Source: a virus | IMG/VR virus record: IMGVR_UViG_3300032116_000870 | Coordinates: 1 to 31,662 of that record | Direction: 5' to 3' (one strand) | DNA length: 31,662 bases | Shown here: piece after piece, positions 1 through 17,444 of the stretch | How positions within the stretch are numbered: the stretch's first letter is position 1 | Layout of the letters: every line of letters begins with the position of its first letter | Notes under the pieces: generated by a model | The model's database searches: none | Seen by the model: only the letters and a program-made list of their open reading frames with translations | What the model was told of the DNA's origin: nothing | Made by a program: the position numbers and the translations under genes

Positions 1-3000
1 TGCGGATGGGGCTCTCGTTGCCGATCACCAACTCGACGACACCTTTACGCTCACGATAGAACGGGATGTAATCGTCCTCTGCCACAAGCTTCTTGACAAG
101 CGCTTTAGACAAAGCGCCAGTGCTGGCCACAAAGTCCAAAAGGTCGCGATTGTACTTGTTGTACTCTGTGCGGGCTTCTTCAAAAATCTTCTTAAGCGGT
201 GCGTTTTTGTTAACTAAGTTAGTAACTTCATCAAGCATTTCCTGTGTCAACACCGGATTGCCGTCTTTGTCCTTACCAAAGTTGAGCGTTTCAATGCCTT
301 TGTTCTTGGCACGAATAGCCGCCATGTAAGTTGTAAAGACTTGGTTTACAGCTTCGCCGTTACCAATGTACTGGTTGGCTTCTTTCAGTTTGTTTACAAC
401 ACCGGCAATACTGGCTCCGCCTGTTGTCTCAACAAGACGCTCAACACGACCATCGTCACGAGTTATTTCTCGGATTGAAGGCGCTCCATCAGACACGGCC
501 TTAGACACAATGTTCATGCGTTGGTCGTACGAACGGAGGTAGTACAACATCTGGGTGCCTTTGAGCGGCTCCATGTACTTAGCCAAACGCTCAAAGCCTG
601 CAAAGCGGTCAACAAGCTGTGTCTCAAACGCAAGGCCAGTTAAGTTGACCTTGATGCTTTCCCACCAAGTCTTGTCCTGCGCCACTGTTCTAGTAACAGT
701 TGAGCTAACTCTTTCAAACTCAGGGTCTGCAAACTGTGGCTTGCGCGACAACAAGATGCCCTTGGCTTTACCAATTGGCTCAAGGTCTGTTGCAATAATT
801 TCTGCGCCTTCTTCTTTGTCAATATAGTCAACGTAGTTGTATGTAGACTTTGATGTAACCGGTCTGTCACGAGAATCATGGTCTAAGAACTTGTTGCCTG
901 AAACCCCGTAGGAAGCAAGAATCTCAGATGCTAAACGCCCGCTTTGAACAACTGTTTTAAGCGCTTGGTAAAACGTTGCGCCTGACGGTTCTTCTGCGTC
1001 AGCTGCAGCTAGTTTTTTACCAGCCGGTACTGCAAGCACAGGTTTAATTAAACGATCAAAATATCGTTTAGCTTCTGGGTTCATGTCACGAACAATATTT
1101 TTAAATGCTTCTGCCACAGGAGCCGGTTGTTTGTTAAGCGGCGCATCCCATAACAAATACGTGTCTTCCGGACGTGTGTGCAGTGTTCGTATCAATACAC
1201 CCGTGGGTTCAGGTATAGGCGACGTTGTTCTTGGGTTATATGTAAAGTCGCTTTTCTTTAGTTGTTTAATACCTTCTAAAGCAACTTTAGAACTTTTGTA
1301 TAAGGATTCGTCGGGAGTATCTTCAAAAAGAAAAATGTTTGCTTCTTGGTCTTTTTTTACATACGCTATTGCGTCGTCAAGTTGTTTTTCAAACGTGTCT
1401 GTTGACGTATCTATCAATCCGTAGGTTGTATCACTGTGTCGCAATACCCACAACACTTTTTCAGCAGCAAGCTGTGCCGGAGTTTTATTTTTTTGGGTGT
1501 GGTTAAGTTGGTATGTAACGTCGTACCAATCCATGCCACGATATGTAGGCGACCCAAAAGGCATAGACAGTTTTTCAAAGTCTATGTTTTCAACAAACAG
1601 TAACACAGGGGGGTCTAAAGGAAGAAGTCCTTCGTCCATGCCGTTTTTAAAACGTAGTATTGCATCTCTCCAACGTCTTGCAGGAGAGACTTTATAAGGG
1701 TCAGAAAACATAAAAAAATCTTCTGTGTTGGGGTCTGTAAACGACAACAACATAGAAAATTCCAACGCATATTTGTGCGGAACGCCACCCAACTCTTGGT
1801 CTTTAAATCTAGAGACTTGCGCAAACTTCATAAAATCGTCTGACGAATACCCGTTGTACTTTGGCTCCTGCGTTTTATGCCATGCAACAATTTCAGGGAG
1901 CTTTTTCCAAGCTTCCATTTGTTTTTCTTTACCTATTTCGCGATAGTGTTTAGCAACACCCTTTCTTTGAGCGCGGTACGTGCCCCAACTAAATGCTTGG
2001 AAACCTTCACCAGTCCCCATAAAGGCAAAGTCAAACATATCAAATATGCCGCCTGTGCCGTGCCATGTGCCACGAAGTTCAAGCTGGGCGCAACCGTGTG
2101 CAAAGTTAACCAAATCACCGGCAGTAAGTTCGCTGGTTGGAATGCCCAACTTGTTCAGCGCTTTCTTAAACGCGTCAATAATTGAGCTAAGCCAACCGTA
2201 TGCAGAACCTTTCTTAGTCCCAAGCACCCCAGCCTGCACAGCTTCCTCCACCGCATACGCTAACAATTCGTCGTTGATTTGGTCTTCAGGAGTCTCCGCC
2301 ATCTCAACACGTTGCACGGCTTTACGACCAATCTGCGCTTCAATAGAGTTGTCTGTGCGCGTAGCCCAGTTCTTAACAGTATCAGCCAGACGGTTAAATT
2401 GCGGCTCACTAAAAAAGTTACGGAAACCAACGTGCACGCCGATCTCGTGGAGCAATACGCCAAGGCCGTGGCCTTTACCAATATTGTTAGCAAACAGTAC
2501 TGCGCGTTCGTTCTCAGCAAAACCTTTGGCGTCTGAAGGAATCTTGCCAGCGTACTTTGGGTTTTCCTTTATAAAGGCTTCAACACTGTTATAGATTTTT
2601 ACGTTGCCGCGTGCAGTCACGTCGGTGCCCATGGCTTCGTCAAGCTCCGCCTTCAAGGTCTTGGCGTCTGTGCCTGTTGTCGACTCGCCGCGTGAGAAGT
2701 TAAAGTCGCCGCCAAAGTCAAAGCTGCCTTGTGTCTTACCTTCACCTGCACGGCCTATGTCTGCTTCTTCACGATCTATTGCACCAAAGTCAAACCGGTC
2801 AACAATTGTTTTAGCAGCAACAGGTTCAAACAGTCGTTCAATACTCTTCTCAGACATCGTGCCAGCACGCAAAGGTTTACCTCTTGCTTGACCAACGGAG
2901 CTTAATGTTGTTGCGGCTTTCTGTTTGCGTTTTGGTTTGCCTTCAAGGAACACGTCTGCCTGCGCTTCAATAGAAGCAATAGTCTGCAACACACCAACTT

Positions 3001-6000
3001 TTGCCTGTGCGTTGATGACATCTTCTAGTTCAGACTTGGGGTCGTTGATAATCTTTTTAAGTTCAGCTTCAGTGTCGGGGCCCGGTATGCCTTCCGCCTC
3101 AAACAGCAGATCGGCAATCTGGTCGCCGTATGTTTTAATTATCTGATCCTTCCGAGCAGTGCGCATAAACGCATCTTCTTCGCGCTCCATCGCTTCTGAT
3201 GCTTCTTTGCGCAAGCGCTCTGCTTCTTTATCAGCAGTTGTAGCAATCTTCGACACTTGCATAGCGCCCCTTAACAAAACGCTACGTCTTTCAACAGCCT
3301 CGTCAAGGTCTGCTTTAAGTGTGTCTACACTTTCTTTCAGTTCTGTTTTGGTTTTGCCTCGGGCTTTTAACAACTTGTCGCTAGCAGCGTCGTATTTCTC
3401 TTGAAGCGACTCGACTTTTTTATCTAGTGCTTCGTACTCTTTTCTTTCTTCTGGCAAGAACGCGCGTCGTTTGCTCTCAACACCCTCACCACCAAGCTTG
3501 TCTTTCCAAAACTCTTCCATCTGTTGTTGGTCAGATTTGGCAATTTCTTTAAACTCAGTAGCCCGTTTCTCAGCAGCTTTAACAGCGTCTTTCTGCGCCT
3601 TCAGGTTTTTCTCAGCCTGCCGGTACGCAAAAGGATAAGAGTTTGGATTGTCAAAAATGCTTTCCCCGCGCATGTTGGCAAGGCTAGCTTCTTGCATTTC
3701 TAAGTACTGACGCTCAAACTTGACATTGCCGTCAAGCATAGCTTGGACAACAACTGTTGCGCCATCAAACTCGTCGTGGCGTCTAAGAGTCAGTTTAGTT
3801 AAATCAAACGTTTGTGCTTTGATTTTCTTTTTAAGGTCGTCAATAACGTCCTTCTTTTCTTCGTAGCGGAACAACTCGTATGTGGCAAGCTCTGTGCGGT
3901 TAGCGCCCTCTTCTTGCGCCAACACATCATCAAAACGTTTCTTAATCTTGTCTAATTCCGCCTGCTCTTTGTTGAGCGTCTTCGTAGCAGCTTCAAGGCT
4001 CTTGCTTACTTCGGCAATTTGTGGGTCGAGTAGTGCGGCGCGAGCAGCTTCCATATCACCACGAGCTTTGGCAATTGCTTTTTCTACAGCAGCTTGATAT
4101 TCACTGCGCTGTTTTTGAACAGCTTTCTCAGAGTTAATTAACGCTTTCTGTTCAGGAGACACAACTAAAGAGCCTTGCATAACATCTTTAAGTTGTTCAA
4201 GGACTTTGCGCAGTGGGGCTATACGATCGTCCAGTGCTTTTGCAGCCGCCCGAACATTTTCATTGGTGTCCTGCATGAACGCCAATAACTGATTGTCGGC
4301 ATCTTGAAGACGGCGTCCTTGAGCCAACAGCTGCATGGCTTCATCAAACTGCTGTTTGTACTGAGTTAGTTGTTTTGTGTTGAACGCCGTTACCAAACGC
4401 GAAGCGGTCTGTTCTTCTTTTTTGGTTAAGGGCTGGCCCCTGCGATATTTTTCTAAAATAGCTTTTTCTTCTGCGGTTGTACCTGCTTCTGGCATACCTA
4501 CAAATATTTTTGCCAACTGCTCATCAGTCCAACGACTAGTGTCTTTCCAAAAGTATTGCGTATCTTGGACAATGCTGTCCATGCGGTCTTTGACTTTTTC
4601 AATAAACTGCAAGCGTCTAGCCAGTGTTATTTTTTTGCCAAGCCGTTGTTGTTCGGATTTAGCAAACAGCGCCCGCGCTTTATCAAGAGCTGCCCACACG
4701 GTTTTCATGCGTGGAGAGTTGGCAAAGTTCTTTGGAGTTGCGCGGATGTAGCCAATATCTTTTTCCGTCTCAGGGAACAGAGATTTCTGTCCTTCAGGCA
4801 CAGTCTCGGTTGCGCGAATAGCGTCATTGATAGCGCGGATGTCTACTTGCTTAACGTCGCGTCCTGCAACGATGGCGTCAACCACGGGCTCAACTTTGTC
4901 TAAAAGCTCACGAGTAGCTTTGCCTGCATCCATAATATCAACGGCAGCATTGAGCGCATCACGGGCACCGGGACGCATACGGCCCATCTTGGACATCTTG
5001 TTGCGTACAAATTCTGTACGGCGACGCAGTTCTCCACCAAGCGTTGTAGCTGTCTCGCCACGGGCTTCCGCAGTTTTCTTGGCTTCCTCTGAAGCAAACT
5101 GTGTATTGAGCGGCTCAGCTTCTACTTTCTCAACTTTGCGTGGGGCTTCGTCTGTCAGCTTGTTTCTGGCAGCGTTAATGATTGCTCTGAAGTGTTTGAT
5201 TTCAGCTTCGCTTAGTTTCCTTACACCACCACTGACAAGACGACGCTCGGTAACCGCAGAGCGCACAATCTTGTTGGCACGCATCTGGGCTGGTTCAATA
5301 ATTACATCCTCGTAAACAGGAGCCGCGCCTTTTTCTTGAGCACGCTCAATCCAATTGTTAAAGGTATCATGAAGTCTAGACGCGGCGGCAAGGGCTTCGT
5401 CTGTTGTCAATGCCGGTCTATTTAAAGCACGACGGTTGATTGCGGCTTCTTGCAAAGCGCCTGTAATGTATTGTGCGCGAGCTTCTTCTGCTTTTTTAAC
5501 CAAACTTGCTTCGGTTGTTTCTGCAACACCTTTACCAAAACCAACAAGTCGGGTTTCCATTTCTCCCGTTTCAGGGTTGCGAACTTGTTCAGTTTCTTTG
5601 CCAAGCGTTAGTTGAGACCTTACGTCAGATGTAGCATCTTCCAGTTTAGCCATGGCTTCTTGTTGCGCACGGCGTGCAGCAATCAATTCACGGGCGTAGG
5701 ATGCACGAGTGTCTTCTTCGGCAGGGCCGCGCTTTAAACCTTTGGTTTCTGTACCAGCAGGCTTTTCTTTAGCCATTGCGTTAAGCTGATCGTTTGCATT
5801 GTTCAGCCTTTGGAACGCTTCCATTGCTGCGTCTCTATTGCCTTGACGACGGAGTGCGCGGTAATCTCTATCGGCTTGCTCTACAACGTCAAACAACTGG
5901 TCTACAGTCTTACGTACTGTAGGCGCTTCGCGCAAAGGCATAAGGTTTTCATTGACCTTAACTGCGCCGGGCTGTCCTGACAAAGCCTTCTCAAACATTG

Positions 6001-7675
6001 GGTCAAGGTAGTCAAAGTTTGGCTCAGAAGTTCTCTTCTGTTCTTCAACCTGTTCTTCCGACGCACGCAACAGAGCAAACTGGTCTTTGGGCGTAGTAAG
6101 CTTCTGTTGGTCAAGCGCTTGTTCTTGCGTACGCTGTTGCATAGCTGTTTTGGCTTCTGCGGCTATGCGAGATTTTAAAGAGTCGTAAATTTCTTCGCTG
6201 CGCAACAAAGGCTTGTTGTCCTTTGTCATTGGCAGACCTTCTAGCGTAGGTCGTGTTTGCACAAGCTGTTGAGCCTTGGCAAAATCTTGCATCAAATAGT
6301 CTACATAGTCTCCAAGCGCTTCAGACTTATATTTGGGGCTGTAGCTTGCCGCAGTATTCATCTGCTCATTGGCCAAAGCAATACGCTGGTTGCCATACTC
6401 TGCAACTTGTTGTCGAGGAGTCAACTCAGCCGGTGGTCTTGGCGGTGTAGCAATCTGTTGCTCATACAACTCAGGGCCTTGTTCTTTTTTCTGCTCTTCT
6501 GTCTCAGGCTCCAGACCAAACGCATACTCTTGTGGCGTGAGCTTGGCAACGCGCTCTTGCTCTGCTATTTGACCAAGCACGCTCTTTGACTTGTAGTAGT
6601 CGTCCGCCAGAGGCTCAAGCTCTTTGCTCAACGCTTTAATCTGTACATTGAGGTCTCTGTTAAACGCACGGTCTGCGTCAACAGTAGGAGAACCTTTTTC
6701 AATCTTTTTAATCTGCGCAATTAGGTCTTGCTTTTGTTTAGCCAGTGCGTCGTACTGTTGCACAACTTCCTGCGCATACTCAGGTGTTGTTTTACGCTTA
6801 CGCTCTTCCTCAAGGCGCTTTTCTTCTTCTGCACGCAGCGTAGCAAACTCATCTTGTGCCTTAGGCCCACCCTTGGCACGACGACCTAGCGCCAGATCAA
6901 ACAAACCTTGGGCTAACGCACCAACCGCGCCACCGTAAGCAGCAGACTCGCCGACGCCTTCAATAATTTCTTGGTCAGGTTTGTAAATGCCTTTGGAGAT
7001 TAAGTTCTGCGCAGCCTGAGATGCGGCTTCCTGTGCGGCTTCTTCACCGCCAGCCAGCAGTGCACGTTTAACATAGGACACAGCGCCATCTTTAACAGGC
7101 TCTGATATACGTCCAAGAATACGGGCGGGAGCAAACATCTCGCTGATGCCGACCACTGAGCCCAAAGCGGTTGCGCCTGCACGTTGTCCTTCTGTGGCTC
7201 CGCCTTCTTCGGCACGAGTACGGGCTTCTCCAGCACCTGCGCCAGCACCAAGCGCAGCCATGATCCCGCGCCCTGCTACACCAAAAGGCCCTGCGGCCAA
7301 GAACGGAATGATTGAACCGGCAGCTTCGCCAAACTTACGCCCAACAGTATCCTCATAGCCCGCCGTAGCTTCAAACGGTTTCTTGGCAGAACCTGCAAGA
7401 CTTGCAATCCCTGTACGAGCAGCTTTTTCAGTTTCTTCAGGAAGTAGTGCGGATGCGCCAATAGCCGCGCTTTCCACCAAATTGATAGCGCCGGGGGCTA
7501 AACCTTTAAAGAACTCTTTGGCTTGACCGCCAACCGTAGTTTCTTGTCTAGGGGCTCCCTTAGAAGCAAAGGCTTCCGGATACATGCGCTGTGCCCGCTC
7601 CCACGTTTGTGCAGGAGTTTCGCCCTCCCTAATGGTTACAAATCTACCGTCTGGTAAAGGGAGTGCTTGTGGCAT
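1..7675 (-). CDS. Giant polyvalent-type protein with metallopeptidase and ADP-ribosyltransferase-like domains (partial, C-terminus outside window)
   Basis: The frame is open from the ATG at 7675 to the window edge (2558 codons, no stop). An AGGA lies 6 bases before the start. Residues 5-36 hold an LPDGRF...YPEAF segment, like N-termini of other phage internal proteins. Residues about 115-160 and 208-262 are Gly/Ala-rich and hydrophobic. About 270-1650 is charged, Lys/Glu/Ala-rich and helical, probably coiled coil. HEIGVH at 1743-1748 (bases 2449-2432) is a zincin zinc-binding and catalytic motif, with an acidic NDELLAYAVE segment near 1800 as a possible further ligand. WHGTG with H1872, then FMGTGEG and WGTYRA (Y1900), matches the ADP-ribosyltransferase domain of phage polyvalent proteins. 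Its C-terminal half, YLLWDAPLNKQ and LASYGVSGNKFLD, resumes after about 250 inserted residues. Such proteins are thought to enter the host with the DNA and disarm defences; that role is inferred here. It is the most promoter-distal gene seen in the structural operon. Confidence 0.85.
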   Translation of the reverse strand, partial: MPQALPLPDGRFVTIREGETPAQTWERAQRMYPEAFASKGAPRQETTVGGQAKEFFKGLAPGAINLVESAAIGASALLPEETEKAARTGIASLAGSAKKPFEATAGYEDTVGRKFGEAAGSIIPFLAAGPFGVAGRGIMAALGAGAGAGEARTRAEEGGATEGQRAGATALGSVVGISEMFAPARILGRISEPVKDGAVSYVKRALLAGGEEAAQEAASQAAQNLISKGIYKPDQEIIEGVGESAAYGGAVGALAQGLFDLALGRRAKGGPKAQDEFATLRAEEEKRLEEERKRKTTPEYAQEVVQQYDALAKQKQDLIAQIKKIEKGSPTVDADRAFNRDLNVQIKALSKELEPLADDYYKSKSVLGQIAEQERVAKLTPQEYAFGLEPETEEQKKEQGPELYEQQIATPPRPPAELTPRQQVAEYGNQRIALANEQMNTAASYSPKYKSEALGDYVDYLMQDFAKAQQLVQTRPTLEGLPMTKDNKPLLRSEEIYDSLKSRIAAEAKTAMQQRTQEQALDQQKLTTPKDQFALLRASEEQVEEQKRTSEPNFDYLDPMFEKALSGQPGAVKVNENLMPLREAPTVRKTVDQLFDVVEQADRDYRALRRQGNRDAAMEAFQRLNNANDQLNAMAKEKPAGTETKGLKRGPAEEDTRASYARELIAARRAQQEAMAKLEDATSDVRSQLTLGKETEQVRNPETGEMETRLVGFGKGVAETTEASLVKKAEEARAQYITGALQEAAINRRALNRPALTTDEALAAASRLHDTFNNWIERAQEKGAAPVYEDVIIEPAQMRANKIVRSAVTERRLVSGGVRKLSEAEIKHFRAIINAARNKLTDEAPRKVEKVEAEPLNTQFASEEAKKTAEARGETATTLGGELRRRTEFVRNKMSKMGRMRPGARDALNAAVDIMDAGKATRELLDKVEPVVDAIVAGRDVKQVDIRAINDAIRATETVPEGQKSLFPETEKDIGYIRATPKNFANSPRMKTVWAALDKARALFAKSEQQRLGKKITLARRLQFIEKVKDRMDSIVQDTQYFWKDTSRWTDEQLAKIFVGMPEAGTTAEEKAILEKYRRGQPLTKKEEQTASRLVTAFNTKQLTQYKQQFDEAMQLLAQGRRLQDADNQLLAFMQDTNENVRAAAKALDDRIAPLRKVLEQLKDVMQGSLVVSPEQKALINSEKAVQKQRSEYQAAVEKAIAKARGDMEAARAALLDPQIAEVSKSLEAATKTLNKEQAELDKIKKRFDDVLAQEEGANRTELATYELFRYEEKKDVIDDLKKKIKAQTFDLTKLTLRRHDEFDGATVVVQAMLDGNVKFERQYLEMQEASLANMRGESIFDNPNSYPFAYRQAEKNLKAQKDAVKAAEKRATEFKEIAKSDQQQMEEFWKDKLGGEGVESKRRAFLPEERKEYEALDKKVESLQEKYDAASDKLLKARGKTKTELKESVDTLKADLDEAVERRSVLLRGAMQVSKIATTADKEAERLRKEASEAMEREEDAFMRTARKDQIIKTYGDQIADLLFEAEGIPGPDTEAELKKIINDPKSELEDVINAQAKVGVLQTIASIEAQADVFLEGKPKRKQKAATTLSSVGQARGKPLRAGTMSEKSIERLFEPVAAKTIVDRFDFGAIDREEADIGRAGEGKTQGSFDFGGDFNFSRGESTTGTDAKTLKAELDEAMGTDVTARGNVKIYNSVEAFIKENPKYAGKIPSDAKGFAENERAVLFANNIGKGHGLGVLLHEIGVHVGFRNFFSEPQFNRLADTVKNWATRTDNSIEAQIGRKAVQRVEMAETPEDQINDELLAYAVEEAVQAGVLGTKKGSAYGWLSSIIDAFKKALNKLGIPTSELTAGDLVNFAHGCAQLELRGTWHGTGGIFDMFDFAFMGTGEGFQAFSWGTYRAQRKGVAKHYREIGKEKQMEAWKKLPEIVAWHKTQEPKYNGYSSDDFMKFAQVSRFKDQELGGVPHKYALEFSMLLSFTDPNTEDFFMFSDPYKVSPARRWRDAILRFKNGMDEGLLPLDPPVLLFVENIDFEKLSMPFGSPTYRGMDWYDVTYQLNHTQKNKTPAQLAAEKVLWVLRHSDTTYGLIDTSTDTFEKQLDDAIAYVKKDQEANIFLFEDTPDESLYKSSKVALEGIKQLKKSDFTYNPRTTSPIPEPTGVLIRTLHTRPEDTYLLWDAPLNKQPAPVAEAFKNIVRDMNPEAKRYFDRLIKPVLAVPAGKKLAAADAEEPSGATFYQALKTVVQSGRLASEILASYGVSGNKFLDHDSRDRPVTSKSTYNYVDYIDKEEGAEIIATDLEPIGKAKGILLSRKPQFADPEFERVSSTVTRTVAQDKTWWESIKVNLTGLAFETQLVDRFAGFERLAKYMEPLKGTQMLYYLRSYDQRMNIVSKAVSDGAPSIREITRDDGRVERLVETTGGASIAGVVNKLKEANQYIGNGEAVNQVFTTYMAAIRAKNKGIETLNFGKDKDGNPVLTQEMLDEVTNLVNKNAPLKKIFEEARTEYNKYNRDLLDFVASTGALSKALVKKLVAEDDYIPFYRERKGVVELVIGNESPIR

Positions 7676-7707
7676 GGTGCGTCCTAATTGTGCGGCTTGA
7701 GATTAAC

Positions 7708-7733
7708 CCCCGATAAGGCCGAACCTACCGGGG
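7708..7733 (-). other. GC-rich hairpin in the gap before the giant gene
   Basis: The transcript can fold CCCCG (7733-7729) onto CGGGG (7712-7708), continue through weaker GUA/UAU pairing and close with GG/CC around a UUCGG loop. It lies between the stop of the 588-residue protein and the start of the giant gene. On the minus strand it is followed by GTTAATCTC rather than a U-run, so it is not a standard intrinsic terminator. It could attenuate transcription or protect an mRNA end. The structure is visible; the role is a guess. Confidence 0.5.
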
Positions 7734-7749
7734 TGTTTGTATTATGACA

Positions 7750-9516
7750 TTAAGGCAATGCGCTGGCAACATTAACAGGTTTAAAGCCGCCTGCCAGTTG
7801 TTCTTTTTGTAACTGTCGGATAGTGGCAGCTTTAGCTCTTTCTGCGGGATCTTTGGACGCTTCCATCGACTTGAGCAAAGCTTCTCCAGCAAACCCAGAG
7901 TAGTCTTTTAGTAGCGTTTGTATGCCTTTACCCTCAGGCCCCATCACAGTCGAGTAAAACTCAAGACCTTTCTTGGGGTCTCCACCGCCAAGGTTGCCGT
8001 AAAACTTAGACTGCTGGTCGGGCGCATTGAGTTGCGTAATCAAGCGAGCATTAGCGGCAGCTTCACCCATCCCCGCAATTTTTTCACGCGACGTATTGGC
8101 TGATATGGTGTTGAAGATATCCGATGAAATCTTAGCACCTGCGTCGGTAATACTGTTAATAGCGGTAATGCCAAAACGCGCAGACGCCTGTCTAGACGCT
8201 TCAGCCTTTTCTTCAAACGATTGAGCCTTATCAAAATTACCGCGATCTTCTGCACGACGCGCTTGCTCAATGTATTGCAATTCTTTACCGCGTTCTTTGG
8301 CGGACTTCTTAAACTCTTTCATAGCGCCAGAGTAGTCGTCTAAGCCCAGCATGGCTCCTTTAGCAAGATTTACGGCAGCATTTGGTGATTCGCCTGCGGC
8401 AACGCCTAAGAAACCTTTGAATAACGCCATCAAACCGGCTTTTTCTTTGTCGGTTGCATCTTGCAGTTCTTCTTTTTTCAAGGTCTGCTCGTAGCCAGCA
8501 AACGCAGGGCCTTGTTTTTTATTAAATGCATCTAAAGCCGCAATGCTGGTTTCTTTGGCATTGGTTGCGTCCATCTGCTCTTGCAGTACTGTGCGTTTAA
8601 TATCGCCTATACGTTCTTTTGAGTTGGAGAACTTGTCGCCCAACGCTGTAGCGTCGTCAATGGTAGGCGCTTTTGGTGCCTTGTAGCTTGTAGGCAAGTT
8701 AACCACTGGGGGCACAGGAGGCTTGTCGGCAGGAGCTTTATCGGCGGTAGTTTTAAATTTGCCCGCTTTCTCATTAGCCATCAAAACTTCGTCTGGGTTG
8801 ACAACGTCTTTAGGAGCGCCCATGGGTTTCTGACTGGGCTGTTTAGTCATCTCAGCTTGGTAGAACGCTTTTTCTTGTTCCGTAGCAATGCCCGTGTGAA
8901 TGCGATAAGCAATCTCACTTAACGTGGCTTGCTTTTTCTTTTCTCCCATGTAGCCTGAGAACCGTTCAAACATTGTTTGATTCTCGGGAGAACCCTCTTG
9001 CGTAAACTCAGCACGCGGTTGTACAGCCGCCATGCCGGGGATGTTAAACATAGGGTTACTACTAACAACGCTGCCGTCGCCGCCGATAGATCTTGGCGTG
9101 CCTTGATAGCGAGGTACATGCCCACCACCAGACATACGAACCACAGGCTCGCTTTGCTGGGCAAAGTTAAACATACCGCCCATACCGCCTGTGGCCATGC
9201 CTTCTTCGTCGTCTTCGTAGCCTGCAATACCGCCATCAGCCAATGTTCGCATATTGGGCGTTGGGATCTGAGCAATGCCTTGGTTCTCTGGAAGCTGTTG
9301 CTGAGCCATTCCCGCAATAGCGGCATCGGCTACTTTAGGTTGAGGCATAGCACCGGCTTGTCCTTGGCCTGCCGCACGAAGCTGTTTGCGTTGATTGCTT
9401 TCTGAAATGGCAAGGGAGAGGATGTACGGGTCGCCCTTATGCATCATGGCGTATTTTTGCAACGCCTGATCTGGTAAACCCCGCAGAGTTGTTGTGATTT
9501 GGTTTACATCAATCAT
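7750..9516 (-). CDS. Putative internal virion (ejection-type) protein, 588 aa
   Basis: The N-terminus (MIDVNQITTTLRGLPDQAL, then YAMMHKGDPYILSLAISE) is helical and resembles uncharacterised phage internal virion proteins. A Met/Gly-rich stretch follows at about residues 75-150, with LADGGIAGY, an acidic DDEEG and MSGGGHVPRYQG. A Pro/Lys-rich linker is next, and from about residue 280 to the end the protein is charged and helical. I start it at the ATG at 9516, five bases after the upstream stop. An in-frame TTG at 9525 would add three residues and would overlap that stop. It sits directly before the giant gene and follows two other low-complexity virion-like genes, which suggests an internal or ejected protein. 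No enzymatic motif is visible, and the function is inferred from position and composition only. Confidence 0.7.
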   Translation of the reverse strand: MIDVNQITTTLRGLPDQALQKYAMMHKGDPYILSLAISESNQRKQLRAAGQGQAGAMPQPKVADAAIAGMAQQQLPENQGIAQIPTPNMRTLADGGIAGYEDDEEGMATGGMGGMFNFAQQSEPVVRMSGGGHVPRYQGTPRSIGGDGSVVSSNPMFNIPGMAAVQPRAEFTQEGSPENQTMFERFSGYMGEKKKQATLSEIAYRIHTGIATEQEKAFYQAEMTKQPSQKPMGAPKDVVNPDEVLMANEKAGKFKTTADKAPADKPPVPPVVNLPTSYKAPKAPTIDDATALGDKFSNSKERIGDIKRTVLQEQMDATNAKETSIAALDAFNKKQGPAFAGYEQTLKKEELQDATDKEKAGLMALFKGFLGVAAGESPNAAVNLAKGAMLGLDDYSGAMKEFKKSAKERGKELQYIEQARRAEDRGNFDKAQSFEEKAEASRQASARFGITAINSITDAGAKISSDIFNTISANTSREKIAGMGEAAANARLITQLNAPDQQSKFYGNLGGGDPKKGLEFYSTVMGPEGKGIQTLLKDYSGFAGEALLKSMEASKDPAERAKAATIRQLQKEQLAGGFKPVNVASALP

Positions 9517-9521
9517 GTTCT

Positions 9522-10529
9522 TCAACCCATGTTATAGATTGCTAAGTCAGCCAAACCTGCTGGGCGGCGTTCCAAGTCGCCGGTAGCTCCACCAGCCGCA
9601 CCAAACAATTTAGCGCCAGTCAGTGCCGCACCACCAAGACCTGCAACTTGAGACACGGCAGAAGGGGGCGTCTGATACACAGAGCTTGACTGCTGAGTCA
9701 ATGGCAAGCCGCGCAAGATGTCAGACATGAAGCCCAACTGCTTGTATGGGTAGTTCTGGTAGTTCAAGAAGTCTTGGTACTGGTTGTTCAGCACGTTCTG
9801 AACTTGCTGTTGCTGCTGGCCACCGAACTGGTTCTGCAGCCCCAAGATGCCCATGTTCTGCTGATACTGCGTGTTGCCGATGTTGGCCAAGTTACCTGCG
9901 GCAGTATTAGCTGTCTGCAAACCCTGAAGTCCCAAACCTGCGCCAAACTGTTGTTGCTGCGCGTTCAGCTGGTTCTGCGTATTGAACTGCTGCATAGCTT
10001 GTTGGTAAGCATTGTTCAGCCCCTGAGACTGAATGTCGTTCAGCTGCATACCAAGATTGCGCTCGCGCTCGGCTCGCATAATTGCGTCTCTGCCGCCACC
10101 AAAAGCACCGGCTTTAGTAGCTTGACCTTGTTGCTGAGTGCCTGCAATATCTGACTGGCGTTGGGCTTCCCGCTTCTGGATGTCCACCACATTCTGCATG
10201 TAGGGGCTCATCATGCTAGATGCCGCGCCGCTTGTAAAATTAGCCGGGTTAAATGTGTACTGCGTGTTCAGAGCGCCAAGACCTGCCATGCCTGAGAGCG
10301 CGGTTGCATCGCCCAACTGAGGAGCGGCCTGCATTGCCCCTGCGTTTTGATACGCCTGCTGTTGCAAAGGTGTGAACTGCGCAACGCGATCCCCCTGATA
10401 CTGCATGTAGGGGTTTTGCTCAGTGTCGGTAAAGTACTGCGCTTTACCTAGCATTTCCTCTACAAACGGCTTAGCGTAGTCGGGGATTGAGGTTTGCGAT
10501 ATCGTTTGTTGGGATTCTTGTAAAGCCAT
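9522..10529 (-). CDS. Glutamine-rich putative virion protein, 335 aa
   Basis: The N-terminus has TSIPDYAKPFVEEMLGKAQ and PYMQYQGDRVAQFTPLQQQA, a pattern common at the start of uncharacterised virion proteins of short-tailed phages. Residues about 90-290 are rich in Gln, Asn, Gly and Ala. They include GAFGGGRDAIMRAERERN and runs such as GGQQQQQVQNVLNNQYQ, giving a low-complexity, probably helical body. The C-terminus (VAGLGGAALTGAKLFGAAGG) is small-residue rich. The ATG at 10529 has an AGGA about 8 bases upstream. The gene lies 10 bases after the 808-residue gene and directly before the 588-residue gene. The three together look like an internal virion protein set. No catalytic motif is seen. 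Confidence 0.75.
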   Translation of the reverse strand: MALQESQQTISQTSIPDYAKPFVEEMLGKAQYFTDTEQNPYMQYQGDRVAQFTPLQQQAYQNAGAMQAAPQLGDATALSGMAGLGALNTQYTFNPANFTSGAASSMMSPYMQNVVDIQKREAQRQSDIAGTQQQGQATKAGAFGGGRDAIMRAERERNLGMQLNDIQSQGLNNAYQQAMQQFNTQNQLNAQQQQFGAGLGLQGLQTANTAAGNLANIGNTQYQQNMGILGLQNQFGGQQQQQVQNVLNNQYQDFLNYQNYPYKQLGFMSDILRGLPLTQQSSSVYQTPPSAVSQVAGLGGAALTGAKLFGAAGGATGDLERRPAGLADLAIYNMG

Positions 10530-13000: not shown

Positions 13001-13654
13001 TCATGTTGGGAGCGCAGACACAAATGACATGGTAGCTACCACCGACTGCGTAGAAGGCTTAGTGGGCGTGCCGGAAGCGGCAAGGTGTTGAATAGTTACA
13101 TCAGCGTTAGTTGGCGACCAGTAAATCTCAACGTAGTCATTTGCCGCCATACTTAAAAAATAGTTCCACCCAATAATAGAGTGTCCGGGCGTACCGCCGT
13201 GGCTGTTTGGAATAGAAAGAAACCCCGTTGAGCCAGTTATATCTGTGCCGTTTTGACGTAGCCAGATATACACGTCCTGCAGACCAACGTTTGCATTTGA
13301 AAACTGTGTGCTGAACTGTAAGTTGTATATACCAGCCGTTGCTACAGTAATTTGAGATGAGCTAATAGACACATCATTTGCAAAATCAGTAGTATTAAAC
13401 GTCATTAACGTAGCTGTATTAGCTGTCGTTGTTTGGTCTTGGTCGCTAGAGAATGCGCCGTAAGGAACGCGCAAACCCGCTGTATTTGAGGAAGTGTTTA
13501 ACTCTCTTGTGAAGTTATCAAGCTGGTTAAAGTACAAACGTAGGACGTTGTTAAGCTGCTCCTGATACCGCGAGTCGTACTGCCCCGGAGCAAGGGGTAA
13601 GTTAGGCGCAGCAACTCTATTAAGCTCATAGTTAGAAGTAACAACAAGAGTCAT
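13001..13654 (-). CDS. Virion protein with C1q/TNF-like jelly-roll domain, 217 aa
   Basis: Residues about 16-53 form LPLAPGQYDSRYQEQLNNVL and RLYFNQLDNFTREL, an N-terminal helical segment shared by many phage tail-associated proteins. Residues about 64-215 look like a C1q/TNF-type beta sandwich: VPYGAFSSDQDQT, an ITVATAGIYNLQFSTQF strand motif, VYIWLRQNGTDI, NYFLSMAANDYVEIYW and a closing VVATMSFVSAL. In phages this fold forms trimers on fibres or spikes and often binds ligands. The ATG overlaps the stop of the gp10-like gene as ATGA, so the two are probably translationally coupled. The fold is assigned by eye from strand motifs, without a structural search. Confidence 0.75.
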   Translation of the reverse strand: MTLVVTSNYELNRVAAPNLPLAPGQYDSRYQEQLNNVLRLYFNQLDNFTRELNTSSNTAGLRVPYGAFSSDQDQTTTANTATLMTFNTTDFANDVSISSSQITVATAGIYNLQFSTQFSNANVGLQDVYIWLRQNGTDITGSTGFLSIPNSHGGTPGHSIIGWNYFLSMAANDYVEIYWSPTNADVTIQHLAASGTPTKPSTQSVVATMSFVSALPT

Positions 13655-15789
13655 CGTCTGCCATCCGGTCTAATGTCAATACGAGTTGCGCCAAGCTGCC
13701 ACTGCGTACCAAGTGTGTCGGACGACGCTTTCAAAATCAACTGGCGACCGCGAAGGCGTGTGTTGACCTGCCCCGTGAAACCTTCAGTGATTGTGTACTG
13801 AACGCCAGTAAGTTGATCTACGTCCGCAGCAACGGGAGTGCTTGTGCCTGAACCCGAGTTCTGCATGGGGTACACGGTCAGCGTTAGCTGCGGTGTTGTG
13901 TTCTCGTCTGACCCTGCAAAGCTCAAGTCAGGCAACATGCGCCAAACAAACCCGAAGTTGTGGCCGTCCCCAATGTCAAACTCAGACGAGGAAATATATG
14001 CTTCGATAGGCAATGGTGTAGCGTTTTCTTCATCGTTAACGCCTAGTTCATGGCTGACAATCTTGCCTTCGCCGCCCGTGCCGTATGTGGCTGCAATAGG
14101 GTAGTTTTGTAAGCCTGAGTCCAACCACGCTGTTCGTGCCATCGTGCCGTAGTACCACACTTTTTCAAGATAGTTGTACACCACGTACTTGTCAATTGCA
14201 GTGCTGTCTTTAGAGCAGTAGAACCACCACACTTCATTAAAGCCTTCGTTGGTGCTACCAAACACTTGGTAGTTTTGGGTCAAGTTAATGTCTTGGTAAA
14301 TGAACTTGCGCAGATCACAGTTGAGCGTCTGCACGCGGCCATCGTATGAGTAGAACTTATCTACGCCCATCCAATACACAACACCAGAAGCTAGGGCTAC
14401 TGAGTTGGGGCCAAGGATAGAAACGTTGTCACCCAAGAGCTGTGAACTCCACACAAACGGAGCGCCCAAGTACTGAAGCGAATACACAGAAGCATCTGTG
14501 AACACCACAATCTCTTGACGGGTTTGGATAACAGACACAATCTTTGAGCCGTGCGACAAACGGATACTACCTGCTTGGTTTGTAATTGCGGGCGTCCACA
14601 TTGTGGGGTTTTCCTGATCCGACCAGCGAATCAGCATTGGGTCTTGTACGGTGCTACCAATATCATTGCAACCAAACGCAAACACAAAGCGACTCGCATC
14701 AGATACAAAAATGGAGTTTTGTATAGTAGGCACATCAGACGCACCGCCTAGACTTGACAGCAAAATACCACGAACCGACAAAGAATGAATTCCAGACTGA
14801 GTGCCCGTTGTGTTAATCGCCACACCGCCAAAGGTTGCAGCTAGGGTCACAGTCGTAGTAGTAAAAGATGTGGCTGTTACATAGTACGTCACATTAGGAA
14901 AAAGACCTGTAGGTAAAGCGCCTGTGGTTACAAGCTGTAGCGCGTCTCCTACAAGTAGGCCGTGCGCATCACCAAAAGTCAAAATCCCGGGGCTTGCAAT
15001 GCTGATGGTAAATGTCTGACCGGGTAGCTGGACGCTAGCGTTCCAGTAATAAATAGCGCCGCCAACGGAGGCAAAGATCAAGTCTTCACCAAAGTTAGAC
15101 TGCGTCCATAGCTGCAAGGGTGCGCCAGTAACTTTATTAGTACCCCAACCGCCAAGACCCCAGCCACCACCGCCCCAACCCACCGACGGTGTCTGCACCT
15201 CAGAAGCCACGTTAACTAAATAAGTTGCAACTACGCTTGCGCCGCCACCCGTACCAGAGCCGTTTGATAGCGTGTTACCAAAAGCAGTAATTGTGTACGT
15301 GTTAAGGTCGACAACAGATACTTGGTATTCTCTGTTTAAAAGCAGAGCTGTAATGGTGGAGTTGATACCCGTAGCGCCGCTAAAGATCACAAAGTCGTTG
15401 GAGTTACAGCCGTGCGCTGCGTCATACACAGTAATTGTGGATGAGTTGTTTACAACCGTAAAAGGATCGCCTGTGCCGCTTGAACCCAGCATAGGGCGCA
15501 CAACTTTGCGAACAGGTGTGATGTCAAAGAACACACCACCTTGGTTAATGTAGAACTTAAGACTAGTACCAGCGCCGATCAAGTTCTGTCCAGCCAGTGT
15601 CACCCAGTTCCAAAGAGAGCGGCACACACCTAAGAACGTATCCGCAGAGAACTGAATCCAGCCGCCAATCTTCTCAGGCGTACCTTGACGAAAGCGTACC
15701 TTGTCACACTCGTACCAACCGCCTTCAGTGGTGTAGCGTGTATTCTCCCGGTTGACGCCCGGCTTAAACAGTACTTTTTGTAGTGGCAT
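13651..15789 (-). CDS. P22 gp10-like packaged-DNA stabilisation / tail protein, 712 aa
   Basis: The N-terminus (LFKPGVNRENTRY, EGGWYECDKVRFRQGTPEKI, then TFLGVCRSLWNWVTLAG) is the hallmark of a phage family that I recall as P22 gp10-like DNA-stabilising proteins. These sit at the tail hub and close the portal channel after packaging. The rest is beta-rich with repeated W- and Y-containing strands, as in a propeller. Two AAHG or DAHGLLVGD insert motifs occur near residues 130 and 275. The ATG at 15789 has an AGGA 7 bases upstream. It follows the endolysin gene by 8 bases and overlaps the next gene by 4. A tail location is likely; the exact gp10 equivalence is moderately sure. Confidence 0.75.
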   Translation of the reverse strand: MPLQKVLFKPGVNRENTRYTTEGGWYECDKVRFRQGTPEKIGGWIQFSADTFLGVCRSLWNWVTLAGQNLIGAGTSLKFYINQGGVFFDITPVRKVVRPMLGSSGTGDPFTVVNNSSTITVYDAAHGCNSNDFVIFSGATGINSTITALLLNREYQVSVVDLNTYTITAFGNTLSNGSGTGGGASVVATYLVNVASEVQTPSVGWGGGGWGLGGWGTNKVTGAPLQLWTQSNFGEDLIFASVGGAIYYWNASVQLPGQTFTISIASPGILTFGDAHGLLVGDALQLVTTGALPTGLFPNVTYYVTATSFTTTTVTLAATFGGVAINTTGTQSGIHSLSVRGILLSSLGGASDVPTIQNSIFVSDASRFVFAFGCNDIGSTVQDPMLIRWSDQENPTMWTPAITNQAGSIRLSHGSKIVSVIQTRQEIVVFTDASVYSLQYLGAPFVWSSQLLGDNVSILGPNSVALASGVVYWMGVDKFYSYDGRVQTLNCDLRKFIYQDINLTQNYQVFGSTNEGFNEVWWFYCSKDSTAIDKYVVYNYLEKVWYYGTMARTAWLDSGLQNYPIAATYGTGGEGKIVSHELGVNDEENATPLPIEAYISSSEFDIGDGHNFGFVWRMLPDLSFAGSDENTTPQLTLTVYPMQNSGSGTSTPVAADVDQLTGVQYTITEGFTGQVNTRLRGRQLILKASSDTLGTQWQLGATRIDIRPDGRR

Positions 15790-15797
15790 TGGCAGTC

Positions 15798-16304
15798 CTA
15801 GGATAGAAACAGTGCTTTTTCAGCGTCCCTGCGCTTTTTTAGCCCTGCCAGTATTTTGCCACCACCCATGCAATACAGCAAGAGCGCATCGGCTGCGCCT
15901 TCCCAATCTCCACGGTTTATTTTCATCCGAATAGACGAGCGCTGAAACCCACCCAGTCCGGCATTGAAGGAAAAGCTGACGCACGCATCGAAAGCGCCTT
16001 GACGACCAGATACAGCGGGAGCAAGTCTAAGAACACCACGTTCAAAAATAGCGATGTCATTGTCGAATATCTTATAGATTTCTTCTTTTGTCCAGACACG
16101 GTTGTCCTCCGGTTTTAATGGCATTTCTTTGCGGATCATGGGGGTTTCTTTGCCTTCCACCCTTGCCACGGGCAGACGGATTTGGTCTTGGTACAGCACA
16201 TGCCCATAACCAATCGTCCAGATCTGAGCAGGGCACAGGTACGGTTTAGTCCTGTACCCCTCCCATTGGTGCATTAACTTAGCGCCAGCTTCGCCCAGTT
16301 TCAT
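15798..16304 (-). CDS. Endolysin, T4-type lysozyme (GH24 muramidase), 168 aa
   Basis: The protein should cleave the glycan strands of peptidoglycan at the end of infection. The family signature is clear: QWEGYRTKPYLCPAQIWTIG followed by YGH, with E15 as the general acid, C24 at the second catalytic position and T30. The spacing E-x8-C-x5-T fits the known E/D-or-C/T variants of GH24. The C-terminus has the usual GLKKRRDAEKALF. The length is normal for the family. There is no signal peptide or N-terminal anchor segment, so it is probably a cytoplasmic enzyme released by a holin. Its ATG overlaps the holin stop (ATGA). An insert at about residues 40-65 between the catalytic loop and the helical lobe lengthens it slightly. 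Confidence 0.93.
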   Translation of the reverse strand: MKLGEAGAKLMHQWEGYRTKPYLCPAQIWTIGYGHVLYQDQIRLPVARVEGKETPMIRKEMPLKPEDNRVWTKEEIYKIFDNDIAIFERGVLRLAPAVSGRQGAFDACVSFSFNAGLGGFQRSSIRMKINRGDWEGAADALLLYCMGGGKILAGLKKRRDAEKALFLS

Positions 16305-16804
16305 TTCTTGCTCCAGCTTCTTGAGCCAAACCAGAAGCCAATGATCCCGCCCAACATGGCCATCTCATCGCTAGAGAAGATGATGTCAGACAAACGAATT
16401 AGGTCTTCCATGCTCATCACCAAACTTGGGCGGCTGTACACGTAGTAGGCAATCCAAGCGTTAATGGCACACAGTTCCAGCACAAAAATGTACGTCACCA
16501 TCGGGCGAACCGTGCCCACAAAGTTCACCACCCATGTGCTGGCATTGTCCATAATCTTCTTGTCATGGTCATAGGCTGCAACAGTCATCTGGGCATCTGT
16601 CTCCATTGCAATCTGGTCGGTGCGAATTTCTTCCATGCGTTCTTGAGCCGCAAAGCCTTGAGCCGCCATTTGAAGCTGCATCTGCATTTGGATATTAGCC
16701 AGTGCCAGCTCGTGCTTCTGGTCAGCTTTGTTCTGGAAGTAATCCAGCAGTTTGGGCAAGCCCGATATGAGCAAACCGCCAAGTGTTGAGAATAGTGAAA
16801 GCAT
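16301..16804 (-). CDS. Holin, 3TM type (gene-transfer-agent holin family), 167 aa
   Basis: The order of segments fits the 3TM holin family. There is a hydrophobic N-terminus (about residues 3-22) and a Gln/Met-rich amphipathic helical middle (30-80). One long or two short membrane spans lie at about 91-123 (WVVNFVGTVRPMVTYIFVLE onward). A last short span at 146-161 ends GIIGFWFGSRSWSKK, the characteristic family ending. It would form membrane lesions that release the endolysin encoded immediately downstream, with a 4-base ATGA overlap. Its own ATG overlaps the stop of the 57-residue gene. I am fairly sure of the family; the timing role is known for holins in general and not shown here. Confidence 0.85.
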   Translation of the reverse strand: MLSLFSTLGGLLISGLPKLLDYFQNKADQKHELALANIQMQMQLQMAAQGFAAQERMEEIRTDQIAMETDAQMTVAAYDHDKKIMDNASTWVVNFVGTVRPMVTYIFVLELCAINAWIAYYVYSRPSLVMSMEDLIRLSDIIFSSDEMAMLGGIIGFWFGSRSWSKK

Positions 16805-16977
16805 TACAGTCCTATCATTCCAAGAAGTTTATCGACAATTTTCCCCGCCAACTCGTCAGGCAAGAAGCGGAGCAGACCAAGCACCCACCACGCCACACAG
16901 AGCCTGACGAACACCTTGAAGAAGAGGTCAGCTTGTTTTTGGTACTCATTCACCGACCACACCTTGCTGTAGCGCAT
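16804..16977 (-). CDS. Small membrane protein, 57 aa, in the lysis cassette
   Basis: This short gene fills the gap between the 164-residue gene and the holin. It starts MRYSKVWSVNEYQKQ, has one strong hydrophobic span at about residues 18-38 (containing LFFKVFVRLCVAWWVLGLL), then PDELAGKIVDKLLGMIGL, an amphipathic tail. Its ATG lies inside the end of the 164-residue gene (28-base overlap) and its TAA overlaps the holin ATG (TAATG). A GTG at codon 9 with AAGG upstream is an alternative start. Tight coupling to the holin suggests a lysis accessory role such as an antiholin or second pore protein. That is inference from position and topology. Confidence 0.7.
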   Translation of the reverse strand: MRYSKVWSVNEYQKQADLFFKVFVRLCVAWWVLGLLRFLPDELAGKIVDKLLGMIGL

Positions 16978-17444
16978 AGTTCGTTAATTTGTGTAAGCCC
17001 CCAGCCAACAGCACCAACAAACATCACAATAATTACAATGGCAATTGCCCACTCCATCTGTTCGGCCTCGGCCTCTTTGCGCTTTTTCTCTTCAGCGTGT
17101 AAGGCCGCCATCTCTTTGGCATCATCCCTGTCCAGTTCAGCTTGACGGGCTTTAGCCGCATTCCATACATCTATGCGCCCAGCTTGCATAAACAACATTT
17201 TTAACTGCTCTTCAAACCGTTTGGCTTCATCCAAAGCCATCTCAATCTGTAACGCCGCACCAAGGTTAGACTTACCGCCCGTACGCTTGGCGTGAAGCAT
17301 GGCCTTCGTAGCGGTTGACTTGGCATCAAAAAGCTTGGCTATTGACGGCGTTAGGCCTGCCAGATCACTAGCCACTTTACTAGCTTTTTTAACGACACTG
17401 ATTGCAGTTTGCAATCCTTCTAGCGCCGTGATTGGATCAATCAT
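16950..17444 (-). CDS. C-terminally anchored coiled-coil membrane protein, 164 aa
   Basis: No named family is recognised. Residues 1-45 are moderately hydrophobic and helical. About 65-130 is a highly charged helix likely to form a coiled coil, ending KKRKEAEAEQMEW. Residues 132-150 (AIAIVIIVMFVGAVGWGL) are a clear membrane span, with a short 14-residue tail holding two Cys. The positive and acidic helix next to a single span recalls inner-membrane lysis proteins, but the orientation is opposite to a classical i-spanin (Rz), whose anchor is N-terminal. Its ATG overlaps the stop of the 150-residue gene (ATGA). A lysis accessory role is a guess from context. Confidence 0.75.
   Translation of the reverse strand: MIDPITALEGLQTAISVVKKASKVASDLAGLTPSIAKLFDAKSTATKAMLHAKRTGGKSNLGAALQIEMALDEAKRFEEQLKMLFMQAGRIDVWNAAKARQAELDRDDAKEMAALHAEEKKRKEAEAEQMEWAIAIVIIVMFVGAVGWGLTQINELCATARCGR

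Follow-up and report, generated by a model that had tools for sequence, protein, structure and literature searches.

At one end of IMG/VR virus record IMGVR_UViG_3300032116_000870 lies a giant gene in which a metallopeptidase and an ADP-ribosyltransferase (ART) domain share one reading frame, raising the question of what kind of protein this is and what its enzymatic domains would do on a chain encoded among phage structural genes. The window, that is, the whole stretch of DNA analysed here, comprises the 31,662 bases of the record, which is probably a fragment. The reading that we favour, with moderate confidence, is a phage-type polyvalent protein, probably the large protein of the ejection core in a podovirus-like particle, with a constant zincin and an exchangeable payload.

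Extent and architecture of the giant gene

The gene occupies the minus strand, where the frame opening with an ATG at position 7675 stays free of stop codons for 2,558 codons up to the contig end at position 2; a random frame of the local composition would remain open over this length with a probability of about 10^-62. Relative to homologues, dN/dS is 0.07–0.38 where it can be estimated, being highest in an insert of the ART domain and low in the N-terminus, the zincin and the C-terminus. These values bear out the single frame of at least 2,558 codons reported in the initial annotation, with the correction that the contig end cuts the gene short. Close relatives occur at ten IMG/VR loci, where the complete genes encode 2,827–3,140 residues, and complete relatives in a wider set span about 2,500–3,400 residues. 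By this comparison the window protein would be the N-terminal 2,558 residues of a chain of roughly 3,100, with about 600 residues lost at the contig end. In relatives the giant is followed by a convergent gene of the primase/helicase type, encoding about 973 residues (14101–17022, minus strand, in the relative L003), and by a gene for a DNA helicase. The missing end of the window would therefore probably border a replication block. At the other end of the gene, a GC-rich hairpin lies in the 74-base gap before the start codon (window positions 7676–7750); its stability is not above that of shuffled sequences (z = −0.97).

The chain is made up of a conserved N-terminal region, a long spacer, an exchangeable cassette holding both enzymatic domains, and the start of a conserved C-terminal region (Table 1). 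The N-terminal region is 69–99% identical among relatives and contains no strong transmembrane helix (hydropathy maximum 1.42). The long charged helical region noted at first reading is confirmed at residues ~281–1600, where D, E, K and R make up 27–45%, and Gly plus Pro 5–13%, of each 128-residue block; residues 281–1603 gave no confident family match. The last 238 residues present in the window protein are 95–99% identical to those of L003, a complete relative with an LPD38 domain (PF18857) in its C-terminus (E = 2e-30, 106.7 bits against a cut-off of 27). LPD38 is therefore assigned through complete relatives, as the contig stops before the equivalent stretch of the window gene. The conserved C-terminus of complete relatives matches 152 phage records in tblastn searches, and a scan of GTDB genomes with it found no relatives. 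Whole-protein scans against Pfam, PHROG and NCBIfam returned matches at chance level only; DrmE_C (E = 0.052), Phage_integrase (E = 0.27) and DksA (E = 0.0012; 19 bits against 289) were rejected as far under their cut-offs.

Table 1. Features of the giant gene and its upstream neighbours in the window
Feature	Positions	Strand	Residues	Basis or remark
Giant polyvalent-type gene	2..7675	−	1–2558	ATG start; 3′ end missing; complete homologues known
Conserved N-terminal region	6836..7675	−	1–280	begins 'MPQALPLPDGRFVTIREGETPAQTWERAQRMYPEAF', continues Ala/Gly-rich and moderately hydrophobic
Charged helical-type spacer	2867..6835	−	281–1603	low Gly/Pro; kept in relatives
Exchangeable cassette	686..2866	−	1604–2330	metallopeptidase and ART here; other metallopeptidase without ART in L006-type relatives
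Zincin-like metallopeptidase domain	2075..2662	−	1672–1867	45-sequence alignment; AlphaFold2 model; hhalign
HEIGVH (HExxxH) motif	2432..2449	−	1743–1748	
Predicted third zinc ligand, in DELLAYAVEEA	2267..2269	−	Glu1803	invariant in 45 sequences; own helix in model
ADP-ribosyltransferase domain	776..2074	−	1868–2300	sub-threshold PF18760 matches, model, fold matches
ART strand 1	2060..2062	−	His1872	invariant in 30 relatives; HGTG starts here
ART strand 2	1976..1978	−	Tyr1900	invariant in 30 relatives
ART strand 5 (NYVDYID)	818..820	−	Asp2286	invariant in 30 relatives
Start of conserved C-terminal region	2..685	−	2331–2558	85–99% identity; ~600 more residues in relatives
591-residue gene directly upstream of giant	7750..9525	−		no confident family; place of T7 gp15 by gene order
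DNA ejection protein, phrog_4287	9522..10529	−		E = 1e-16; same place in L003, E = 6.7e-15
Virion structural protein, phrog_3287	13651..15789	−		E = 4.6e-66; several homologues annotated 'stabilization protein' (tblastn)

Zincin-like and ART domains

The metallopeptidase motif had been placed exactly in the initial annotation; its form is HExxxH, with three residues between the Glu and the second His, and not HExxH. Residues H1743, E1744, G1746, H1748, E1803, Y1807, E1810 and E1811 are invariant in the 45 aligned sequences, which reach down to 25% identity, and this conservation rules out a chance motif. In the AlphaFold2 model (pLDDT 89.2, pTM 0.80) an N-terminal helix is followed by three strands and by the motif helix, which ends just past H1748, and E1803 lies in a later helix, giving the combination of motif and downstream Glu in a second helix that is typical in form of HExxH/HExxxH zincins. 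The predicted model agrees with the polyvalent metallopeptidase set of Iyer et al. (2017; PMC5512222), which is described as having an HEXXXH form and a possible bend of the helix.

Structural comparison of the zincin gave weak matches. VIA-align of the zincin alone reached Z scores of at most 4.6. The rows that span the whole domain are mostly M34-type zincins and Pro-Pro endopeptidases, and these score Z up to 4.0 with the domain alone and as high as 5.0 with the two-domain model; Foldseek against the PDB returned nothing at E ≤ 0.001 for either the 663-residue model or the zincin alone, and the cassette profile had no match among PDB sequences. A GTDB scan with the zincin found five relatives at 28–36% identity, too weak for naming a host. 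Weak zincin relatives (29–36%) at two loci, L227 and L229, lie on Parasutterella and Duodenibacillus genome contigs, perhaps in prophages.

For the ART domain, the boundaries first proposed (about residues 1870–2295) proved right. H1872, Y1900 and D2286, which are invariant among 30 relatives with 35–70% identity to the window protein, lie on or beside the first, the second and a late predicted strand of the model, and an H-Y-D active site has been published for polyvalent ARTs (PMC5512222). A fast-evolving helical insert of ~255 residues separates strand 2 of the domain from the strand that follows. The ART-PolyVal family, PF18760, matches window residues 1871–1928 (E = 0.003, 18.8 bits) and 17 of the 30 members, always below its gathering cut-off (16.9–18.8 against 31.2 bits); vir555 (DBA35080) and Rhodobacteraceae phage LS06 (WBK39883) share the ART motifs and likewise miss the cut-off. 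Because the gathering score is missed, the domain is filed as an H-Y-D ART of the Tox-ART-HYD2 type and not as a member of PF18760. The predicted model has the fold of the ART superfamily: its top PDB row in VIA-align is the catalytic domain of PARP1 (Z = 6.2, a moderate score; rmsd 5.0, 123 residues aligned), and its matches among BFVD viral models include ART-PolyVal-like proteins (E = 2e-9 and 1.5e-8). Of the structural matches anticipated in the initial annotation, that of the ART is thus clear and that of the zincin weak.

Pfam scores under curated cut-offs, together with the large insert in the ART, could also indicate a structural or ejection protein whose enzymatic domains have decayed and serve only as folded modules. 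We regard such decay as highly improbable, since no predicted catalytic residue varies across 30–45 sequences while the ART insert drifts. The polyvalent reading, with a metallopeptidase and an ART as two unlike functional domains with invariant sites in a single frame, is retained.

An exchangeable cassette and its zincin slot

The region holding both domains is exchanged at the DNA level. Between the window gene and L006, identity is 75–85% in matching pieces up to gene nucleotide 4808 and 92% from nucleotide 6991 on; from 4808 to 6991 there is no DNA identity and the cassettes are unrelated, that of L006 having an HELVH motif without an ART. Between L006 and L011, identity is 83% on one side of the cassette and 89% on the other.

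The equivalent slot was surveyed at 80 loci fetched with the C-terminus as the sole query, which provided 64 distinct slots with at least 200 residues upstream. An HExxH or HExxxH motif occurs no more than 700 residues before the C-terminus in all 64, against 0.71 expected from shuffled sequences, and no zincin-type motif was found elsewhere in the same proteins (80,041 residues). Profile comparison of the slot types yields an HExxxH group (T1–T3, 97%) and an HExxH group (T2, T4, T6 and T7, 95–99%), with values of 0.4–45% across the groups and type T5 joined weakly to T3, which places the slot zincins in at least two clades. The accompanying payloads include the window-type ART, a second ART-like type and an L,D-transpeptidase-like domain; in other slots nothing was recognisable. 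We infer from these comparisons that the ART is an optional payload and the zincin the constant part, because the latter is replaced but hardly ever lost. The new element would be a constant zincin slot with an exchangeable payload; a zincin beside this C-terminus in 64 of 64 cases was not found in the parts of PMC5512222 consulted.

The second ART-like type (GTWHGSDA.F..FD...GEG.FDRRF...LG.GPY) follows the same zincin and takes the place of the window-type ART at L048, L051, L057, L060, L063, L066, L080 and other loci. At L169 (8372–10051) a YkuD-like L,D-transpeptidase (Pfam E = 0.0053) precedes an HEGVH zincin, making a cell-wall enzyme the payload. Pfam scans of ten alternative slots gave nothing noteworthy beyond this domain and the toxin-like zincin of L209 described below. 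The sequence 'GMSRRAFLRGAVAAVGGMHLPAV' stands directly after the HExxxH zincin at L077 (ORF residue ~1730) and L082 (~2095), and also at L088 and L093, both of which are cut by the contig end. It resembles an internal twin-arginine export signal, which cleavage at this point would turn into an N-terminal one. Further along, L077, which shares its contig with L181, carries another zincin, HELTH.

The zincin might itself act as an effector, cleaving host proteins once inside the cell rather than processing the chain, a reading compatible with the rest of the favoured explanation and one that we hold to be rather doubtful. It is among the possibilities listed by Iyer et al., and the N4 virion RNA polymerase is described as a giant packaged protein with a zincin-type domain that is packaged uncleaved (both in PMC5512222); in addition, the slot zincin of L209 matches the toxin metallopeptidase model Tox-MPTase4 (E = 7.7e-4). 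Yet the zincin is present in every slot while the other payload varies, and more than one clade occupies the same place, which together suit a fixed task on the chain more than changing host targets.

Genomic setting and related giants

The initial annotation had the giant directly behind putative internal virion genes. The second gene upstream encodes a member of a DNA ejection protein family, and the immediate neighbour has no confident family. The order of ejection-protein gene, gene of ~600 residues and giant is the same in L003, and with the phrog_3287 gene also upstream the surroundings are those of late structural and ejection genes. Pelagibacter phage HTVC034P encodes, in this order, tail tubular proteins A and B, acetyltransferase, internal virion protein B-like protein, gp45, giant gp44 and tail fibre. 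If the acetyltransferase gene is disregarded, the arrangement is similar to that of T7, with the giant in the place of gp16 by gene order and not by sequence. T7 gp16 carries a transglycosylase and, unlike the window protein, is not known to carry an ART; the window protein has no match among PHROGs. HTVC034P gp44 lacks a zincin motif, so the zincin rule is not universal.

The protein probably travels in the virus particle. In the papers searched there was no proteomic proof of packaging and no virion proteomics showing LPD38 giants in particles, a result that speaks for a late protein acting in the infected cell at assembly or lysis and not packaged; the place in the operon beside the ejection protein and the equivalence in order to T7 gp16 make such a protein very unlikely, and we continue with a packaged one. 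Identity with an N4-type virion RNA polymerase was set aside, as no polymerase module was seen in the window protein with Pfam, PHROGs or NCBIfam, searches that a strongly diverged module could escape; the likeness to that polymerase includes a weak match of the L006 slot to phrog_2206 (E = 2e-5).

The giant resembles the phage-type polyvalent proteins of PMC5512222 in having unlike enzymatic domains in one giant chain, an HEXXXH metallopeptidase, an H-Y-D ART, LPD38 (in complete relatives) and a late structural operon; it differs from them in that its zincin and its ART share a cassette swapped at the DNA level between near-identical flanks. The finding of LPD38 in the relatives' equivalent of the missing part makes the label 'polyvalent protein', already given in the initial annotation, the right one.

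Among cultured phages, the zincin motif is also present in the giants of PTXU04, Pondi, Vibrio 1.232.O, D274, phiARM81mr, CF418P1 and Pag-Yong1. Distances were measured for six of these: the motif precedes the C-terminal region by 145–185 residues in five and by 414 residues in CF418P1, and the window zincin profile aligns with that of the PTXU04 gp25 group over the HExxxH motif and the Glu (hhalign 97.7%, E = 2e-12). The giant of Vibrio phage 1.232.O (AUR96762, 3,292 residues) has LPD38 (E = 1.3e-43) and an HExxxH zincin in the same place as that of the window protein, with a helicase, a methylase and a GNAT domain as payload where the window protein has an ART. Escherichia phage PTXU04 gp25 (PTXU04_00025, 2,198 residues) is encoded late in a structural operon and has a C-terminus distantly homologous to that of the window protein (22% identity, E = 8e-33), with a homologous HExxxH zincin, whose motif reads HEIIVH, ~175 residues before it; the protein is shorter, only distantly related, and no ART motif was found in it. 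Its authors named it a putative polyvalent protein and classed the gene as 'Fit': knock-down by CRISPRi-ART caused a large drop in plating in laboratory E. coli, and the authors' list of genes whose expression in E. coli was toxic or disturbed infection includes it (PMC11879866). This is the only genetic evidence found in the family.

These observations bear on the predicted role of polyvalent proteins in counter-defence (PMC5512222), according to which the giant would be an accessory effector, packaged and injected mainly to disarm host defence and dispensable in a defence-free host. The payload differs between close relatives, as in an arms race, and the ART insert is the fastest-evolving part. 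However, conservation is strong in both terminal parts of the chain, the gene holds the position of an ejection-core gene, and the distant homologue gp25 is needed for plaque formation in laboratory E. coli. Such a need is more in keeping with a core protein of ejection than with an accessory effector against host defence. This essentiality may stem from the C-terminus alone, where identity to the window protein is just 22%. On balance the accessory role appears unlikely, and an ejection-core protein with an exchangeable payload remains our preferred reading.

Proposed mode of action

The chassis of this ejection-core protein would have an essential role in ejection, its N- and C-terminal parts placing the chain in the particle and sending it into the cell with the DNA, in the manner of T7 gp14–gp16. 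The zincin would have a processing role, cleaving the giant chain during assembly or after entry, and the freed ART would modify one or more host molecules early in infection with NAD+ as the donor. More generally, and tentatively, LPD38 giants could be self-processing payload carriers in which an obligatory zincin by the C-terminus frees interchangeable enzymes from a constant injection chassis.

The window protein itself belongs to a class described in 2017. What the comparison adds is a testable rule, that the peptidase is constant and the payload variable, and through this rule the reason for the metallopeptidases of polyvalent proteins becomes testable in PTXU04, an E. coli phage in culture with a homologue of established essentiality.
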